From: Dietzia lutea
GTDB lineage: Bacteria; Actinomycetota; Actinomycetes; Mycobacteriales; Mycobacteriaceae
DNA length: 64,000 bases
Reading direction: 5' to 3'
Assembly (NCBI RefSeq): GCF_003096075.1
Contig: NZ_CP015449.1
Span: forward strand, 1,977,001-2,041,000
Each line of letters opens with the position of its first letter. The first letter of the stretch is position 1. Shown in pieces: positions 55,018 through 64,000 of this stretch. The translations under genes were made by a program, and so were the position numbers. Under the pieces are notes generated by a model. That model was not told where the DNA came from. It did not search any database and saw only the letters and a list, made by a program, of their open reading frames with translations.

Positions 55018-56673
55018 TCACTGGTAGGACACGAACCACGGGCGCGGCCGCACGGCCATCGTCTGCTCGGGCGTGAACGTGGGCGTGTCCTCGTCGTAGA
55101 AGTTCTTCCAGGCCATCCAGATGTCGGGAGAGAGCCCGCTGCGCAGGACGTCCCACGTCTCCATCTTCAGCCCCGGCGTCCCGTGTCCGTCGGCGTGCAG
55201 GGCGATCGCCACCTCGGGTCGGGAGGTGTCTATCTGGTCCCGGTTGGTGATCATCGCCATGCTGAACTGGTGGAGGATGAGCAGCTTCTGAGGCCCCCCG
55301 CTGTCGCGGGTGAGGTCCGCCAGCCAGTGGATCACCCGGTTGATCTCCTCCGCGTCCACCGACCCGATCTGCGCGCCCGGCTGCTGCCCCGGCTCCAGCT
55401 TCCACTCGGGGTCCAGCGCCAACCCCACGCCGGGCCGCCGGAGCAGGTCCTCGAAGATCCTGGCCTGGTCGACCATGTCGGCCATCCCCGGCTGCAGGTC
55501 GATCACCGCGTAGCCACCAGCGTCGGTGATCGCGTCGACCATCGGGACGAACACCTCCGGCGGCCACTCGTTGGTGAAGTTCCCGTCCGCGCCGGGCCCG
55601 CCCGCGGCGACCGTGCCGATGATCTCGAACGCCGGGATCACCGGTTCCGGCGAGAACGGCTGATACTGGTCGACCAGGGTCTGCACGCGCGCCACGCTCT
55701 CGGCGGGCCCCTGCTCGCCGAGGATGCCCAGCGCCGGGGTGATCGGCGACCCGTAGGCCGCGACGAACCGCCGCCCCGGGAACATCAGCTGCCCGCCGCC
55801 CGGGAGCTCGGGCACCGTCCGGGCGGTCTCGACGCGGTCTCCGAGCTGCTGCTCGGTGCCCCACCCGGGACCGAGTGCGTAGACCGCGTCGGCGTCGCGC
55901 ACGGCCTCGACCGACCCGCCGTCGACCCGGGGATCCGGCGCCCGCAGGTGGGACACCGCCGCGCCGGCGGCCACGGCCGTCGCTATCGACGCGACGGGGG
56001 TCCGGTCGTGGACGAGCACGCTCGGGGCGTCGTCGCCGTCCCACGCGGGTGCGCCCGGCTCGAACGGCTCCGCCGCACCCGAGCCGTCGTCGCTGTCCGC
56101 GTCGCCTCCGGCGGTATCCGTTCCGCCGCCCGCGGCGTCCGTGCCGCCGACCGTCATCAGCGCCGGCGCGCCGGGCGACTGGTGGACCGTGACGTCGTCG
56201 ATCCGGTCGCCGGGGACCTCCACCTCGGAATCGAAGCTGATGCCGGTCAGCTCCTCGAGTCCCGGCCGGTCGGTCGGGGAATCGACCACCTCGCCGTCGT
56301 CGTATCCGAAGGACACCGCGCCGACCCGGAGCACCCGCTCGGCGCCGAGCCGCGACACCTCGTCGGCCAGGCCCGCCTCGCCGCCCGGAACGGCGGTGAG
56401 CATCGGGGCGCGCAGGCCCACGGCGACCGACGCCGCCGCGGCCTGGGCCGCCTCGTCCGGCGCGGCCACCACGACCACCGGCGCGGACTCCACCAGCAGT
56501 CGCGTGGCCTCCACCCCCGAGCCGTCGGCGTCGGCGGCGACCCGGACGCCGTCCGCCTCCACCGCCCGCATCCCGGGGGCGTCACCGTCCTCCGTCGACC
56601 CGCAGGCCACCGTCGTGGCGGCCAGGGAAATGGCGAGGACCGCCGCACCCACACCTCGGTTGATGTGACGCAC
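55018..56673 (-). CDS. putative lipoprotein with cell-wall-binding-2-like N-terminal region
   Basis: A 551-aa exported protein with signal peptide GVGAAVLAISLAATTVACG; Cys24 fits a lipobox (TVAC), so it is probably lipid-anchored. Residues about 50-125 resemble the CW_binding_2 repeat (EATRLLVESAPVVVVAAPDEAAQAAAASVAVGLRAPMLTA, then RLGAERVLRVGAVSF). A Gly/Asp/Ala-rich spacer lies near 165-210. The C-terminal about 280 residues look like a TIM-barrel-type domain (AGGYAVIDLQPGMADMVDQARIFEDLL, VGLALDPEWKL, LLILHQFSMAMI), but I cannot name a family. The start is GTG at 56673 behind AGGAGG. It lies next to ilvC. Confidence 0.72.
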   Translation of the reverse strand: MRHINRGVGAAVLAISLAATTVACGSTEDGDAPGMRAVEADGVRVAADADGSGVEATRLLVESAPVVVVAAPDEAAQAAAASVAVGLRAPMLTAVPGGEAGLADEVSRLGAERVLRVGAVSFGYDDGEVVDSPTDRPGLEELTGISFDSEVEVPGDRIDDVTVHQSPGAPALMTVGGTDAAGGGTDTAGGDADSDDGSGAAEPFEPGAPAWDGDDAPSVLVHDRTPVASIATAVAAGAAVSHLRAPDPRVDGGSVEAVRDADAVYALGPGWGTEQQLGDRVETARTVPELPGGGQLMFPGRRFVAAYGSPITPALGILGEQGPAESVARVQTLVDQYQPFSPEPVIPAFEIIGTVAAGGPGADGNFTNEWPPEVFVPMVDAITDAGGYAVIDLQPGMADMVDQARIFEDLLRRPGVGLALDPEWKLEPGQQPGAQIGSVDAEEINRVIHWLADLTRDSGGPQKLLILHQFSMAMITNRDQIDTSRPEVAIALHADGHGTPGLKMETWDVLRSGLSPDIWMAWKNFYDEDTPTFTPEQTMAVRPRPWFVSYQ

Positions 56674-56750
56674 GGCGGTCCTCCTACAGCTGTCGGGAAA
56701 CGATCCCGGTGGACCCTACAGGGACCTCACACGAGATGCTTCAGCGACAC

Positions 56751-57818
<1,068 letters not shown>

Positions 57819-58325
57819 CTATCGAGTGGTGGTGATGGACTTGGGACCGCGTCCGAGCGCGACCATGCCGGACTGGACGATCTCGCGGATGCCGTAGCCG
57901 TCGAGCATCCGCAGCAGCGCGTCCAGCTTGTCCGGCGTGCCCGTGGCCTCGAGCGTGAGCGACTCCGGCGAGACGTCGACGATGTGCGCACGGAACAGGC
58001 TGGCGATCTCCACGATCTGCCCGCGGTTGGTGGCGTCGGCACGGACCTTGACCAGCGTGAGCTCGCGGGCCACCGAACCGGCCGGGTCCTGCTCGACAAT
58101 CTTGATGACGTTGACCAGCTTGTTGAGCTGCTTGGTCACCTGCTCGAGCGGGAAGTCCTCGACGTTGACCACGATCGTCATGCGTGACAGCCCGTCGGTC
58201 TCGGTCGGGCCGACGGCCAGCGACTCGATGTTGAACCCGCGCCGGGAGAACAGTGACGCGACGCGCGCGAGCACGCCGGGCTTGTCCTCCACCAGCACGC
58301 TCAGGGTGTGGGAACGAGCGCTCAC
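57819..58325 (-). CDS. ilvN: acetolactate synthase small (regulatory) subunit
   Basis: A 168-aa ACT-domain subunit giving valine feedback inhibition. It starts [38 protein letters not shown] and has a second ACT-like half ([28 protein letters not shown]). GTG at 58325 overlaps the ilvB stop by four bases (GTGA). Confidence 0.96.
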
Positions 58326-60217
58326 TGATCCTCCTCCTGGCCGGAGGTGACGGCGGCGTCGATCCGCTCGGTCACCTCGTGGATCTCCGTGGCCTCGTCC
58401 GCCGCGGAGTCGGTGTCGTCGAACAGCGGACGGATGTCCCGGGCCGCCATGATCTCGTCGTTGGACGTCCCGGCCGCGACCATCGGCCAGACCTGGGCGT
58501 CCTTGCCCACGATGAAGTCGATGAGCACCGGCCGGTCGTTGATCTCGCGCGCCTTGGCGATCACGTCGTCCACGTCCTCGGCCCGCTCGCAGCGCAGCGC
58601 CACGCAGCCCAGCGCCTCGCCGAGCTTGACGAAGTCGGGGATGTGCATGGAGTGCGTCGACAGGTCGGTCTGCGAGTAGCGCTCCTCGTAGAACAGCGTC
58701 TGCCACTGCCGGACCATGCCGAGGTTGCCGTTGTTGATGAGCGCGACCTTGATCGGCGCACCCTCGATGGCGCAGGTGGCGAGCTCCTGGTTGGTCATCT
58801 GGAAGCAGCCGTCGCCGTCGATGGCCCACACCTCGGCGTCCTGACGGCCGAACTTGGCGCCCATCGCGGCGGGGACCGCGTAACCCATGGTGCCGAGACC
58901 GCCCGAGTTGAGCCACGTGCGCGGCTTCTCGTACTGGACGAACTGGGCAGCCCACATCTGGTGCTGCCCCACGCCCGCGCAGTACACCGCGTCGGGGCCG
59001 GCGGCGGCGCTGAGGCGCTCGATGACGTACTCCGGAGACAGCGACCCGTCCGACTGCGGCGCGTATCCCAGCGGGTACTCGTCACGGATCTCGTCCAGCT
59101 CGCCCACCCACGCGGACGGCGCGTCCAGCGCACCGGACTCCCGCTCACCGCGGAGCGTCTCGACCAGCTCGACCAGCACCTCCTTGATGTCGCCGACGAT
59201 CGGCACGTCGACCGCACGGTTCTTGCCGATCTCCGCCGGGTCGATGTCCGCGTGGATGACCTTCGCGTCGGGCGCGAACGTGTCGAGGCGCCCCGTGACC
59301 CGGTCGTCGAAGCGCGCGCCGAGCGTGACCAGCAGGTCGGAGCGCTGCAGTGCGGCGACCGCGGCGACCGTTCCGTGCATGCCGGGCATGCCGTAGTGCA
59401 GCCGGTGCGAGTCCGGGAACGCGCCGCGGGCCATGAGCGTGGTGACGACGGGGATGCCTGTCAGCTCGGCCAGCGCCATGAGCTCCGCCGAGGCGTCCGC
59501 CTTGATGACGCCGCCGCCGACGTACAGCACCGGGCGCTTCGACCGCGCGATCATCCGGGCGGCCTCGCGGATCTGCTTGCCGTGCGGCTTGGTGACGGGC
59601 CGGTAGCCGGGGAGCTTCATCTCCGGCGGCCACGAGAACGTCATCTCGCCCTGGAGGACGTCCTTGGGGATGTCGACCAGCACGGCACCCGGACGGCCCG
59701 TCTGGGCGATGTGGAACGCCTCGGCGATCATCCGCGGGATGTCGTCGCCGTGGGAGACCAGGAAGTTGTGCTTGGTGATCGGCATCGTGATGCCGGAGAT
59801 GTCGGCCTCCTGGAAGCCGTCCGTGCCGATGAGAGAGGTCCCCACCTGGCCGGTGATCGCCACGACCGGAACCGAGTCCATCTGTGCGTCCGCGAGCGGC
59901 GTCACCAGGTTGGTGGCACCGGGGCCCGAGGTCGCCATGCAGACGCCGACCCTGCCGGTGGCCTGGGCGTAGCCGGTGGCGGCGTGGCCCGCGCCCTGCT
60001 CGTGCCGGACGAGCACGTGTCGGACCTTGGCCGAGTCGTAGAGCGGGTCATAGACCGGCAGGATCGCCCCGCCGGGGATGCCGAAGACCACCTCGGTGCC
60101 GATCTCCTCGAGGGACCGGACGACGGCCTGCGCGCCCGTCATCCGCTCGGGGGCCGCCGGGCGGGCCTTCTGGTCTGTGCCCGGACGGGGTCCGGGCTGT
60201 GCCGTTGGTGCGCTCAC
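58322..60217 (-). CDS. ilvB: acetolactate synthase large (catalytic) subunit
   Basis: A 631-aa TPP/FAD enzyme joining two pyruvates, or pyruvate and 2-oxobutyrate. It has [39 protein letters not shown] with the catalytic Glu, the FAD domain, and the TPP motif [31 protein letters not shown]. The start is GTG at 60217. It is preceded by an attenuator, so expression probably rises when charged branched-chain tRNA is scarce. Confidence 0.97.
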
Positions 60218-60298
60218 TTCAACTGTCCTTCATGCTGGTCGTGGAGCTTGTCGTTCGTCGCCTCACCCGGTCCGGTGGGACCGGTGGAACCTGGCAAC

Positions 60299-60347
60299 AA
60301 AAAACCCCCGACGGCCACATGGGGCCGGCGAGGGTGCGCGTCGGGGG
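60299..60347 (-). terminator. ilvBNC attenuator terminator
   Basis: On the minus strand CCCCCGACG (60347-60339) and CGTCGGGGG (60313-60305) form a perfect 9-bp stem with a 25-base loop, followed by six T residues (60304-60299). The stem is bracketed by AACCTGGC (60358-60351) and its exact complement GCCAGGTT (60295-60288), an alternative long-range pair. An ACCTGG inside the leader-peptide codons can pair with the same downstream strand. Confidence 0.85.
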
Positions 60348-60363
60348 AAAGCCAGGTTGCGGC

Positions 60364-60411
60364 TCAGGCGCCGACGCGCCGGCCGAGTACGAGACCGTTC
60401 CAGGTGTTCAC
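60364..60411 (-). CDS. ilvL: ilvBNC leader peptide
   Basis: A 15-residue reading frame, (M/V)NTWNGLVLGRRVGA, GTG at 60411 to TGA at 60364. It holds Leu-Val-Leu at residues 7-9 and Val at 13, so stalling on uncharged tRNA-Leu or tRNA-Val would place a ribosome at the start of the attenuator. It begins seven bases after the -10 box, so the message is probably leaderless. Too short for domain evidence; the call rests on position, codon content and the following terminator. Confidence 0.75.
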   Translation of the reverse strand: MNTWNGLVLGRRVGA

Positions 60412-60418
60412 GCGGCCC

Positions 60419-60448
60419 AGACTAGGCCCCGGCTGTCCGCAGCGTCAA
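60419..60448 (-). promoter_or_regulatory. ilvBNC promoter
   Basis: TTGACG (60448-60443), 18-bp spacer, TAGTCT (60424-60419), then seven bases to the leader-peptide GTG. This is the best -35/-10 pair in the window. Confidence 0.75.
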
Positions 60449-60499
60449 CTCGTGGAACACCGATCCCACATAGTGGACCGTGCGAGACTAGAGGGCATC

Positions 60500-60934
60500 A
60501 TGAGCGCCCCATTCAGAGCCCCCGTGCCGGAGTCGACCCCGCGCGACCGCGCCCTCTTCCGCGTCAACCCCATGTCCTACATCGTCATCGCCATCCTCGT
60601 CGTGGCGATCCTCTGGCCCGTCGCGGCCTACCCGCTGGCCCTCGGCTGGCTGGTGCTGATCCCGGTGGGCTTCGCCTGGTGGGTGGCCAGGACCCGCACC
60701 CGGCTCGACGAGCGCGGAGTGCACCTGTCGACCTGGCGCTCCCGGCGTTCGGTCCCGTGGGACGAGGTGAAGGGCGTGATGTTCCCGAAGAAGGGCTTCG
60801 CCCGGCTCGTGACGACCTCGGACGACTCCCTACCGATGGGCGGCGTGTCGTTCCACGACCTCCCGCGCCTGTCCGCCGCCAGCCGGGGCCGCATCCGCGA
60901 CCCCTACGCCGCGCCCGGACCCGAGCAGCCCTGA
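60500..60934 (+). CDS. Cfp6-like PH-domain membrane protein
   Basis: A 144-aa protein with two transmembrane helices (about residues 25-62, SYIVIAILVVAILWPVAAYP and LGWLVLIPVGFAWWVA), then a small PH-like domain (TRLDERGVHLSTWRSRRSVPWDEVKGVMFPKKGFARLVT). It matches the mycobacterial Cfp6 family (Rv3004), also divergent from ilvB. The start is ATG at 60500. Its last about 105 bp overlap the end of the convergent YhgE-like gene. Function unknown. Confidence 0.88.
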   Translation: MSAPFRAPVPESTPRDRALFRVNPMSYIVIAILVVAILWPVAAYPLALGWLVLIPVGFAWWVARTRTRLDERGVHLSTWRSRRSVPWDEVKGVMFPKKGFARLVTTSDDSLPMGGVSFHDLPRLSAASRGRIRDPYAAPGPEQP

Positions 60935-62266
60935 TCCGCCCCGGCCGGCCGGCACCCGATCGGCCACGGCCTGCCGACGCATCCCCATCCGCTCGTACAC
61001 GAGGGTGACCGCGATGCCCACCGCGAGCCCGCCCAGCGTCCAGGCACCGAGCACCCACACGGCGTGACCAAGGCCGGCCTCCCAGCCCGAGTCGAAGAAC
61101 ATGATCGAGCGCAGGCCGAGATAGGCCTGGTGCATCGGTTGCAGGTCGCCGATGGCGACGAAGACGGGCGGCAGCATCTGGGTGGGCGTCGCCCCGCCGG
61201 AGGTGGGGATCCCGAGCACCACGAACAGCACGAGGTTGACCAGCAGCCCGGCGTTGCCGATCGCGGCGATGATGGTGTGCGCGCAGACCCCCACCGCCAC
61301 GATCACGAGGTTCGAGAACCAGAACATGTGCCACGGGTCGTACCCGCTGATGCCGAGGATGTCCGCCACCCACAGGCATAGAACCGACACCAGCGGAGCG
61401 GTGACGAGCGTGACCGCCCACTTTCGCACGAGGGTCTGGAACCGACCGAACGGCGCCACGTGGACGTGATGGGCGAACGGCCCGATCTCGAGCGGGATGA
61501 ACCCGAGTCGGGCGTCCAAGAGCGCCGAGATGATCATCGCGCCGGTGAACCCGGCCAGGATGACGACCAGCGCGTAGAACATCGGCAGCGACGCGTTGGA
61601 GACACCCGCCGGCAGCGGGTTCCACGCCGTGACGTCCACCCTGATCGGGTCCTCGACTGCGAGTGCGGCCGCCGCGCCCACCGATCCGCCCTCCGCGCCC
61701 GCCAGGAGCCCGGCGTCCTCCAGCAGGCCGGGTCCCACGCTCTCCCGGAACGACTCCCGCATCCGGTCGGCCATCGTGTTCAGCACCTGGCCGGAGACGA
61801 TCGACACCCGCGGTGAGTACTGCAGCTCCACGCGTGCGCGGTCCGGCACGGGCCCGCTCCGCCCCGCCTCCGTCGCGGCCGCCTCGACCAGTCCCACGAC
61901 CCGGTCGCTGAGGTCGGCGGGTATCCGCAGGGCGCCGAAATACGTTCCGTCTCGCAACCCGGCCTCGGCGGTGGCCGGGTCCACCATGTGCAGCCTCACG
62001 GTGCCCCAGTCGTTGTTCTGGATGAGCCCCGCCGTGATGCGGGTGCCCACGTCGATCCGTCGCGGGCCGATCGGGGTCTCGAGCGTCGACGCCTCGTCCG
62101 AGTTCACCACGGCGACAGGAATGTGCCGGGCGTGGGCCTGCGGGTCCGCGGTGCCGCCGATGTACATGAAGGCCAGGAGGAAGAACAGGCCACAGACCAC
62201 CGCGACGGCCCCTGCGGAGTGCGAGACGAACTCACGGATCCCGCCGGTGTGGCCGGAGTCGCTCAT
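60830..62266 (-). CDS. YhgE/Pip-type (DUF3533-like) membrane protein
   Basis: A 478-aa membrane protein with one N-terminal helix (about residues 18-37, [20 protein letters not shown]), a large outside domain (about 40-240, with [20 protein letters not shown]), and a C-terminal block of five or six helices ([22 protein letters not shown] onward). This layout matches the ABC-2-like YhgE/Pip/DUF3533 families, some of which are linked to ESX/type VII secretion or phage infection. ATG at 62266 has GAAGGGG six bases upstream. The cytoplasmic tail (about 50 residues, Gly/Ala/Arg-rich) overlaps the opposite PH-domain gene. No ESX gene is near. Confidence 0.78.
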
Positions 62267-62355
62267 ATCCATCCCCTTCGCGTCGTGGGCGGGCTGGCCG
62301 GGCGGCCGACCGTGAGAAGAGTAAACCCACAACGGGGCGTATCGTGGGGAGGTCA

Positions 62356-62395
62356 CGGCGCGTCCGGGGCGCCGTCGGCGCGTCCGGGACGCCCC
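62356..62395. repeat. 20-bp tandem repeat upstream of ilvD
   Basis: Two adjacent 20-bp units (62356-62375 and 62376-62395) agree at 17 of 20 positions; the shared core is CGGCGCGTCCGGG. They lie in the divergent gap before ilvD and could be a pair of regulator sites or plain GC-rich duplication. Confidence 0.5.
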
Positions 62396-62448
62396 CGCGG
62401 GTACAGCCCCTCCGGCCGCCCGCCCCCTTCGAACCGGATCGAGGTCCC

Positions 62449-64000
62449 ATGCCGCCCCTGAGGTCACGAACCAGCACCGCCGGACGCAACGCCGCGGGGG
62501 CCCGGGCCCTCTGGCGTGCGACCGGCATGACGGACTCGGACTTCGGCAAGCCGATCATCGCGATCGCCAACTCCTACACGCAGTTCGTACCCGGCCACGT
62601 CCACCTGAAGAACGTGGGCGAGATCGTCGCGGAGCAGATCGCGGCGGCGGGCGGCGTGGCGCGTGAGTTCCACACCATCGCGGTCGACGACGGCATCGCC
62701 ATGGGGCACGCCGGGATGCTGTACTCGCTGCCCAGCCGCGAGATCATCGCGGACTCGGTGGAGTACATGGTCAACGCCCACACGGCCGACGCGTTGGTGT
62801 GCATCTCCAACTGCGACAAGATCACGCCGGGCATGCTCAACGCGGCCATGCGGCTCAACATCCCCACGGTGTTCGTCTCGGGCGGGCCGATGGAGTCGGG
62901 CTTCTCGGTGGTCGTCGACGGCGTCGTCAAGGCCGGTTCGGACCTCATCACCGCGATCTCCGCCTCGGCGAACTCCGCCGTCGACGACGAGAATCTGGAC
63001 GCCATCGAGCGGTCGGCCTGCCCGACCTGCGGGTCGTGCTCGGGCATGTTCACCGCCAACTCGATGAACTGCCTCACCGAGGCCCTCGGGCTGTCCCTGC
63101 CGGGTAACGGCTCGACGCTGGCCACGCACGGTGCGCGCCGCGAGCTGTTCGCCGAGGCGGGTCGGCTCATCGTGGACCTGTGCACGCGCTACTACCGCGA
63201 CGAGGACGACTCCGTGCTCCCCCGCTCGGTGGCCACCAAGTCGGCTTTCACCAACGCGATGGCGCTCGACGTCGCGATGGGTGGCTCCACGAACACTGTG
63301 CTGCACATTCTCGCCGCCGCGCAGGAGGGCGAGGTCGACTTCGACCTGCACGACATCGAGGAGGTCTCCCGCCGGGTGCCGTGCCTGGCCAAGGTCGCCC
63401 CGAACTCGGACTACTACATGGAGCACGTCCACCGGGCCGGCGGCATCCCCGCGATCCTCGGCGAGCTGTACCGCGGTGGCCTGCTGGAGACCGACGTCCA
63501 CTCGGTGCACTCGCCGTCGCTCGAGCAGTACATCGCCGACTGGGACATCCGCAGTGGCACGGCCACCGAGAAGGCCGTCGAGCTGTTCCACGCCGCCCCG
63601 GGCGGGGTGCGCACGATCGAGCCCTTCTCCACGGACAACCGGTGGGAGTCGCTCGACACCGACGCGGTGGGCGGCTGCATCCACTCGGTGGAGCACCCCG
63701 CGACCGCCGAGGGCGGCCTCGTCGTGCTGCGCGGGAACATCGCCCCCGACGGGTCGGTGTTCAAGACCGCGGGCGTGTCCGAGGAGAACTTCCACTTCTC
63801 GGGGCCGGCCAGGGTGGTCGAGTCCCAGGAGGAGGCGGTGTCGGTGATCCTCAGCAAGACGCTGCGGGCCGGTGAGGTCCTGGTGGTGCTGTATGAGGGA
63901 CCGGCCGGCGGCCCGGGCATGCAGGAGATGCTGCACCCGACCGCGTTCATCAAGGGCGCCGGCCTCGGCACCAAGTGCGCCCTCATCACCGACGGTCGGT
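62449..64000 (+). CDS. ilvD: dihydroxy-acid dehydratase, 5' part (cut by window edge)
   Basis: The fourth enzyme of isoleucine/valine synthesis, an iron-sulfur dehydratase. 517 codons are present without a stop; the family's long form is about 610 aa. It starts at ATG 62449 ([22 protein letters not shown]). Cluster ligands are seen in [14 protein letters not shown] and [44 protein letters not shown] and [19 protein letters not shown] follow. It is divergent from the YhgE-like gene. Confidence 0.96.

Follow-up and report, generated by a model that had tools for sequence, protein, structure and literature searches.

Short leader peptides in front of actinobacterial ilvB genes were predicted in Corynebacterium, Mycobacterium, and Streptomyces by Seliverstov et al. 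in 2005, who called the mode of regulation unclear (PMC1262725). According to the same source, changes in the leader codons of Streptomyces coelicolor ilvB reportedly had no effect. In S. lividans, the ilvL peptide MRTRILVLGKRVG, encoded upstream of ilvBHC, has been called leaderless from RNA-seq data (PMC8079986). The Mycobacterium tuberculosis ilvB1NC leader carries LVVI codons with GUA as a regulatory codon and gives rise to a terminated RNA of about 120 nt, for which a ribosome-masked antiterminator with two mutually exclusive structures has been modeled; in reporters, replacing LVVI with AAAA resulted in low, uninducible expression (PMC13236596). The Corynebacterium glutamicum ilvBNC leader encodes a peptide, MTIIRLVVVTARRLP, that contains BCAA (Leu, Val, or Ile) residues and has its start codon at the transcript end; the RNA forms three hairpins, including a terminator before ilvB, and the mutationally supported model for this leader has the hairpins H2 and H3 overlapping at GCC (PMC11857589). 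As told in that paper, Morbach et al. found that three Val-to-Ala changes remove the valine response and that a start-codon change lowered expression by 80%; an earlier terminator deletion had little effect, but the paper reports its own evidence that the terminator works. In-line probing of a Corynebacterium ilvB-II leader was consistent with both model hairpins together in free RNA, the first of which may correspond to either P1 or P0 as defined below (PMC10272879, PMC11109978). The papers on ilvB leaders disagree on how, and whether, the leader peptide acts, and the antiterminators differ from one paper to the next. In the trp-type attenuators of enterobacteria, the position of the ribosome on the leader peptide chooses the RNA fold, and hairpins 2:3 and 3:4 share a strand.

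The 64,000-nt stretch of the Dietzia lutea genome analyzed here (the window) contains an ordinary member of this known class, located on the minus strand directly before ilvBN(C) as called with NCBIfam models (Table 1). The distance from its U tract to the ilvB start at 60217 is 81 nt, and ilvB is presumed to be the gene under its control. A literature search by the genus name Dietzia found no title on an ilvB attenuator. A generic promoter and terminator scan detected neither element on the minus strand, and an Rfam scan of positions 56000-64000 gave no family match, ilvB motifs included, up to E = 5. Two frames on the plus strand are divergent from this locus: a short one, MSAPFRAPVPESTPRDRALFRVNPMSYIV..., at 60500-60934, whose start codon lies 88 bp from that of the leader, and an ilvD-like frame (dihydroxy-acid dehydratase, by eye) at 62344-63999, near ilvBNC and cut by the window end.

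Table 1. Features of the ilvBNC leader region, in the order of transcription (positions in the window)
Feature	Positions	Strand	Details and basis
Promoter	60419..60448	minus	TTGACG 60448-60443, 18-nt spacer, TAGTCT 60424-60419; sequence
Leader peptide frame MNTWNGLVLGRRVGA	60364..60411	minus	Start GTG 60411, stop TGA 60366-60364, 15 codons
Presumed sensing codons CTC GTA CTC (Leu-Val-Leu)	60385..60393	minus	14, 11, and 8 nt before the GCG core of P1
Possible local hairpin P0, GGCGC-GUCG-GCGCC	60367..60380	minus	Candidate anti-antiterminator; would sequester the P1 5' arm
P1 5' arm GCGCGUCGG	60371..60379	minus	Within the Arg-Arg-Val-Gly codons
Proposed flanking pair AACCTGGC/GCCAGGTT	60288..60358	minus	AACCTGGC 60358-60351, GCCAGGTT 60295-60288; encloses T and its U tract
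P1 3' arm CCGACGCGC	60336..60344	minus	Ends directly 5' of T
Terminator hairpin T (ACCCUCGCCGGCC...GGCCGUCGGGGG)	60305..60335	minus	Minimum-energy fold, genus alignment, covariation
U6 tract of T	60299..60304	minus	GUUGCC next; sequence
ilvB, acetolactate synthase large subunit	58322..60217	minus	NF005860, 1147 bits, above cut-off
ilvN, small subunit	57819..58316	minus	NF008864 and TIGR00119 above cut-offs; C-terminal part of the listed ORF 57819-58955, start approximate
ilvC, ketol-acid reductoisomerase	56751..57764	minus	NF004017 above cut-off

A first-pass annotation of this DNA had proposed a TTGACG-N18-TAGTCT promoter followed seven bases later by a 15-codon frame containing Leu-Val-Leu, and both are indeed found there; the frame reads M NTWNGLVLGRRVGA stop, with its GTG codon 7 nt past TAGTCT. 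The sequence LVLGRRVGA ends the leader peptide in 19 of the 22 complete leaders from the genus (23 genomes; 16 distinct leaders, with the 23rd cut by a contig end), and the frame is conserved in the genus, as is its core in the family. The peptide differs from that of C. glutamicum, as the annotation had noted, and is nearly identical in its core to S. lividans ilvL, in which an LVLG-R/K-RVG peptide likewise precedes ilvB. Streptomyces leaders in the present set share P1 and the U6 terminator with the window leader; they have other N-terminal residues and, judged by eye, mostly a longer P1 loop. Of 178 unique leaders, 165 carry TTGAC or TTGAN in the -35 zone and 130 have a TAnnnT box 6 to 9 nt ahead of the start codon, the box being present in 122 of 123 from the family of the window (named Mycobacteriales records counted in). 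This spacing across leaders fits a probably leaderless frame, as called for the S. lividans homologue, with a transcript expected to start at or near GTG 60411.

An intrinsic terminator with a U tract stands between the leader frame and ilvB. In the minimum-energy fold, ACCCUCGCCGGCC pairs with GGCCGUCGGGGG-U; the window leader folds with z = -2.2, and 5 of 200 shuffles were equally good. The six U residues noted in the first-pass annotation are in place, and so is the complementarity of its 9-bp stem CCCCCGACG/CGTCGGGGG, but conservation points to a different stem. In the genus alignment (22 loci, 16 distinct), CCCUCGCCGGCC/GGCCGUCGGGGG is paired in 97.4% of the cells and CCCCCGACG/CGTCGGGGG in 81.9%, with one pair of the latter forming in only 1 of the 16 distinct sequences and two more failing in 5; the 9-bp stem was rejected as the conserved terminator and is a local variant of this species group. 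Within the genus, the peptide and the CCCUCGCCGGCC/GGCCGUCGGGGG stem are conserved and the 9-bp stem is not. The sequence GGGNTTTTTT occurs only once in the 3.9-Mb genome, at the attenuator. Right after the U tract, 111 of 178 unique leaders have GUUG (14 of 14 in the genus, 60 of 109 in the family, and 37 of 55 others); in the window, at 60293-60298, it lies past the termination point.

The second hairpin that uses the leader codons and is common to the relatives, as identified by helix search and covariation, is P1, which appears together with T in the minimum-energy fold of the window leader. The comparison started from 221 ilvB loci; without four own-genome IlvB paralogues and one 38-nt scrap, 216 usable loci from named records and from family and genus genomes remained, and a leader was obtained from 205 of them. 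Three loci are cut by contig ends (L025, L045, L121), one has a leader with an interrupted U tract and was counted as a miss (L219), and six gave no leader by the patterns used (L053, L210, L212, L214, L215, L220). All 205 leaders yielded a helix that ends at T and is 6 to 17 bp long, although a best-helix search always returns some helix; the results were compared with 60 shuffles. The observed helix was better than all 60 shuffles in 140 of the 205 leaders and better than at least 59 in 176; it was weak (more than 3 of the 60 shuffles as good) in 8, among them L216, whose helix is probably not P1 and which was excluded from the codon-spacing table. The remaining miss, L151, is from a family genome (G022, loci L151/L282) in which P1 spans 14 bp, carries the compensating changes GCCCGUCCAACAUC/GAUGUUGGACGGGC, and is accompanied by a terminator; an intact leader frame was not found there at the usual place.

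Covariation was evaluated independently of this search, with P1 and T fixed on a MAFFT alignment of 73 dissimilar leaders. Paired cells amounted to 86.2%, compared with 77.0% in shuffles and 33 to 59% in slid controls; there were 153 double-change cells, 66 of them in P1 (52.1 in all in shuffles), and the covariation was 0.294 versus 0.146, with none of 500 shuffles as high. Any double change was seen in 13 pairs, a number reached by 40 of 500 shuffles, and the outermost pair of P1 fails in 35 of 69 aligned leaders, partly through alignment shifts. As kinship alone can beat such shuffles, the weight lies on the slid controls and on the variety of pair types at single positions. In a scan of the same alignment for 4-bp helices, the well-spaced ones paired at more than 0.82 all fell in P1 or T, the exceptions at that level being register shifts and the pairing of GGGG with the U tract; register shifts apart, nothing outside P1 and T was as well paired with double changes. 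Covariation across relatives, proposed as a check in the first-pass annotation, is found in P1 and T and is absent from the two pairings of which its switch had been composed (see below). P1 typically lies flush against T: of the 205 leaders, 147 have no gap between the two, and in 185 they come within 1 nt of each other. Among 177 unique leaders, the gap is 0 in 122, compared with 15% in shuffles, and 159 have the first G-C pair of T at 0 to 2 nt from P1.

The codons in front of P1 are placed with the same regularity. In 159 main-phase leaders, drawn from the 165 whose stop codon lies behind the start of the P1 5' arm, codons for BCAA occupy positions -14, -11, and -8 (codon starts, relative to the GCG core of P1) in 99, 99, and 96% of cases, respectively. 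The stop codon precedes or coincides with P1 in another 12 leaders; eight of these are in the main phase and have BCAA codons in 8 of 8 cases at each place, and the other four, in a different phase, have them at -12 (4 of 4), -9 (3 of 4), and -6 (3 of 4). In two genomes of the family, at L209 (MREQLLEVII) and L211 (MREQLLEVRI), the frame ends before P1, which is kept as untranslated RNA. The codon-to-P1 distance is kept while the frame end moves, and P1 is kept even where it is untranslated, which argues that conservation of RRV reflects RNA pairing more than a role as an arrest peptide. The Val codon at -11 is GUA in 161 of 162 leaders; by comparison, GUA accounts for 1.7% of 3090 Val codons when the coding sequence of ilvB is counted over 74 named loci, and for 2 of 187 Val codons in four frames of the window. 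The automatically picked start codon was wrong in roughly ten loci outside the family, in a few of them in the wrong frame.

A covariance model built from the 73 leaders matches the window at 60299-60400, the window leader being one of the training rows. It matches 165 of 246 genomes of the class and 79 of 104 genera, and six of the matched genomes have a second match; the 165 is a lower bound, as laxer filters recovered four of five re-tested misses (all but G225). Outside the family, 39 places in 38 genomes were fetched, plus a weak own-genome match. An IlvB motif lies downstream of 37 of these 39, and P1 comes within 1 nt of T in 37, figures that are only partly independent, as the model that chose the places includes the codon region. 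Two matches were discarded: a second one at L290, located inside a coding gene with no U run seen and judged false, and the own-genome one (E = 0.48), likewise without a U run.

The two places without the IlvB motif (L243 and L265) precede citramalate synthase genes. TIGR00977 was the best match by far for both fragments, which were too short for its cut-off, and the whole genes (G169, G136) exceed it. By coordinates, at least five covariance-model matches stand before cimA (G136, G169, G186, G228, G266). A cimA family match was found in 117 of 148 genomes searched (112 above the cut-off), with none in the window's own genome; at the E-value used, this family also matches 12 of 14 control genomes, 5 of them above the cut-off. 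Among the 30 loci with the best protein scores (L292-L321, all above the cut-off), the attenuator model matched before cimA in 21, of which 18 had E <= 0.01 and three had E of 0.016 to 0.12, with the near end about 43 to 167 nt upstream of the protein match. Additional model matches in this set, at E = 0.14, were seen in L309 and L313. An Ile codon is present in the sensing region of all 21 leaders, in 17 of them as two neighboring codons (read from the printed sequences), and GUA is absent from -11 in every case; for L300 and L321, where a wrong helix had been chosen automatically, P1 was read by eye. As the training set of the model consisted of ilvB leaders, the matches were not selected for Ile. 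The same layout with Ile codons was also seen in L243/L276, L265/L286, L287 (the same place as L302), L288, and L289. In L291, near position 1501 in minus orientation, a small ORF resembling an ACT-domain protein (by eye) is preceded by a leader that ends in Arg-Ile-Ile-Ile-stop and is accompanied by a U tract and a P1-like hairpin. At the level of literature listings, and with the review PMC12857756 set aside, no published report of cimA attenuators was found.

The effect of the ribosome on these structures was modeled in masked folds of 177 to 178 unique leaders, with an assumed cover of 15 nt upstream of and 13 nt from the A-site codon (177 leaders each for the Leu, Val, and third codons in the A site, 178 for the stop codon). 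The mean probability of P1 is 0.80 with no ribosome, 0.96 at Leu, 0.65 at Val, 0.19 at the third codon, and 0.05 at the stop; the respective values for the window leader are 0.98, 1.00, 0.78, 0.35, and 0.00. The mean probability of T stays at 0.94 to 0.97 in every ribosome state, and with Leu masked, 175 of 177 leaders have P1 as well as T above 0.5. In the window leader, T drops to 0.67 in the stop state, where we suppose that the 9-bp stem competes with it. Keeping the 3' arm of the lower T stem unpaired with P1 formed has a median cost of 13.4 kcal/mol. Exclusion of T by P1 through base pairing was thus not found in most leaders in the masked partition functions and the T-blocking calculation. 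As T stays folded in all states and the cost of blocking it is high, equilibrium folding alone predicts no switch. In these folds, the ribosome is predicted to gate P1, and pairing of P1 would leave T free to form in most leaders. The M. tuberculosis model of a ribosome-masked antiterminator is similar to what is proposed below for the window, but the mutual exclusion of the two structures described in that paper (PMC13236596) is mostly not seen in the present folds of related leaders. Similarly, P1 and T do not share the strands that make the terminator and antiterminator of the classical trp type mutually exclusive; the element is modeled as working like a trp-type attenuator and is not filed as one.

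Given the computed parts, their conservation, the covariation of P1 and T, the codon-to-P1 spacing, and the gating of P1, the element is likely a ribosome-mediated transcription attenuator of ilvBNC in which P1 opposes T. The first-pass annotation had already suggested ribosome-mediated attenuation of this operon, and that suggestion is supported. We infer the start site, the direction of the response, and the opposition of P1 to T. RNA polymerase would start at or next to the GTG codon, and a ribosome would load on the leaderless RNA. With ample charged tRNA, the ribosome would reach the stop codon and cover the 5' arm of P1 in the Arg-Arg-Val-Gly codons; with P1 barred, T would fold and transcription would end at the U6 tract. 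If leucyl- or valyl-tRNA is short, the ribosome would wait at CUC or at the rare GUA, with its leading edge just before or at the edge of P1, so that the later codons could pair with the bases just 5' of T to give P1, and RNA polymerase would read through into ilvB. Because P1 and T are compatible in free RNA, P1 is proposed to act by lying flush against T: with no linker between them, the base of T could not form in the exit channel while P1 is folded. This steric conflict in RNA polymerase is the favored way for P1 to defeat T; in literature listings on adjacent hairpins and steric effects, and in PMC10907184, no statement of such a flush-hairpin proposal was recognized.

Since P1 also forms in the folds without a ribosome, an untranslated leader is expected to read through, and the start-codon mutant of C. 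glutamicum fits this poorly. When no ribosome is present, formation of P1 would have to be prevented by a local hairpin, P0. P0 can be drawn in 108 of 122 family leaders (shuffled rate, 0.48) and in 30 of 55 others (0.35), an only moderate enrichment; by position, the C. glutamicum hairpins H1, H2, and H3 would be the counterparts of P0, P1, and T. P0, or H1, might reconcile the low expression of the untranslated leader with the action of P1, a suggestion that is weakly supported. The C. glutamicum mutant speaks against P1 alone as the antiterminator, which makes the model somewhat less likely and P1 as a protecting hairpin (see below) somewhat more so.

A rather unlikely alternative to steric action of P1 is competition for strands at the boundary, with P1 and T sharing a few junction bases and the outer pairs of P1 peeling the base of T. 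This is the C. glutamicum model, with its overlap at GCC and its mutational support (PMC11857589), and P1 and T do abut in most leaders; in the present leaders, however, they mostly only abut. For 8 of 178 leaders, the folds with no ribosome put the base of T at less than 0.5; in seven of these, P1 is at about 0.9 or more (L015, L018, L022, L026, L051, L183, and L216, the last with a helix that is probably not P1; the eighth is L135), and several of these leaders extend P1 into the AA before CCC (by eye). Against this, outward extension of P1 into T is rare: the positions that would need to invade T, -2 and -3 from the GCG core outward, are paired in no more than 18 and 10%, respectively, of the 178 unique leaders. 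T also averages about 0.96 with P1 formed.

Less likely still, P1 could accompany termination as a protecting or pause hairpin, in the manner of the 1:2 hairpin of trp, forming when no ribosome covers it, with some other pairing as the antiterminator. The compatibility of P1 with T would suit such a role, as would the low expression from the untranslated C. glutamicum leader (as told in PMC11857589) and the blocking of P1 in masked folds by a stall at the third BCAA codon. The 73-leader scan also offers weaker helix candidates: one in the leader surrounds the P1 5' arm and is 81% paired, with 15 double-change cells, and another joins the frame end to the 3' arm of T (70%, 34 double-change cells) and resembles the antiterminator drawn for Corynebacterium in PMC10272879. 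However, these candidates pair less than P1 and T do and are among many similar ones that the GC-rich sequence offers, and a stall at Leu leaves P1 free, so that starvation would strengthen termination, against the published response of the relatives. Control of the terminator by a protein or by the general level of translation, with the codons incidental, is very improbable: it would accord with the codon changes reportedly without effect in S. coelicolor (as told in PMC1262725), but not with codon spacing that is independent of the stop position, the nearly invariant rare GUA, the Ile codons before cimA, or the M. tuberculosis AAAA mutant (PMC13236596). Finally, the switch of the first-pass annotation, in which the ACCTGG of codons 3-4 or AACCTGGC would pair with GCCAGGTT downstream of the terminator, can hardly be maintained: both complementarities exist and are kept in 84.4 and 82.8%, respectively, of the genus cells, but ACCTGG is replaced by ACACGG, TCTTGG, ACATGG, or ACACTG in 7 of the 16 distinct genus sequences, neither pairing covaries above shuffles (AACCTGGC/GCCAGGTT less than most of them), the 3' partner is transcribed only once the terminator has been passed, and the AACCTGGC/GCCAGGTT pair surrounds T and so cannot compete with it.

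For the ribosome-mediated attenuator with P1 opposing T, the comparison names one helix that recurs across the class and a spacing rule that predicts the sensed codon, and in most leaders base pairing turns out not to impose mutual exclusion. Specialists may be surprised by the spacing rule, by how nearly invariant GUA is, by the compatibility of P1 with T, and by the branch of attenuators before cimA. It is possible, if on balance doubtful, that Actinobacteria share one modular attenuator, in which a ribosome-gated hairpin flush against T acts by steric block and the codons at -14, -11, and -8 alone set the amino acid that is sensed, namely Leu-Val(GUA)-Leu/Ile before ilvB and Ile-Ile before cimA. 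The Ile codons before cimA would be a natural codon-swap experiment.
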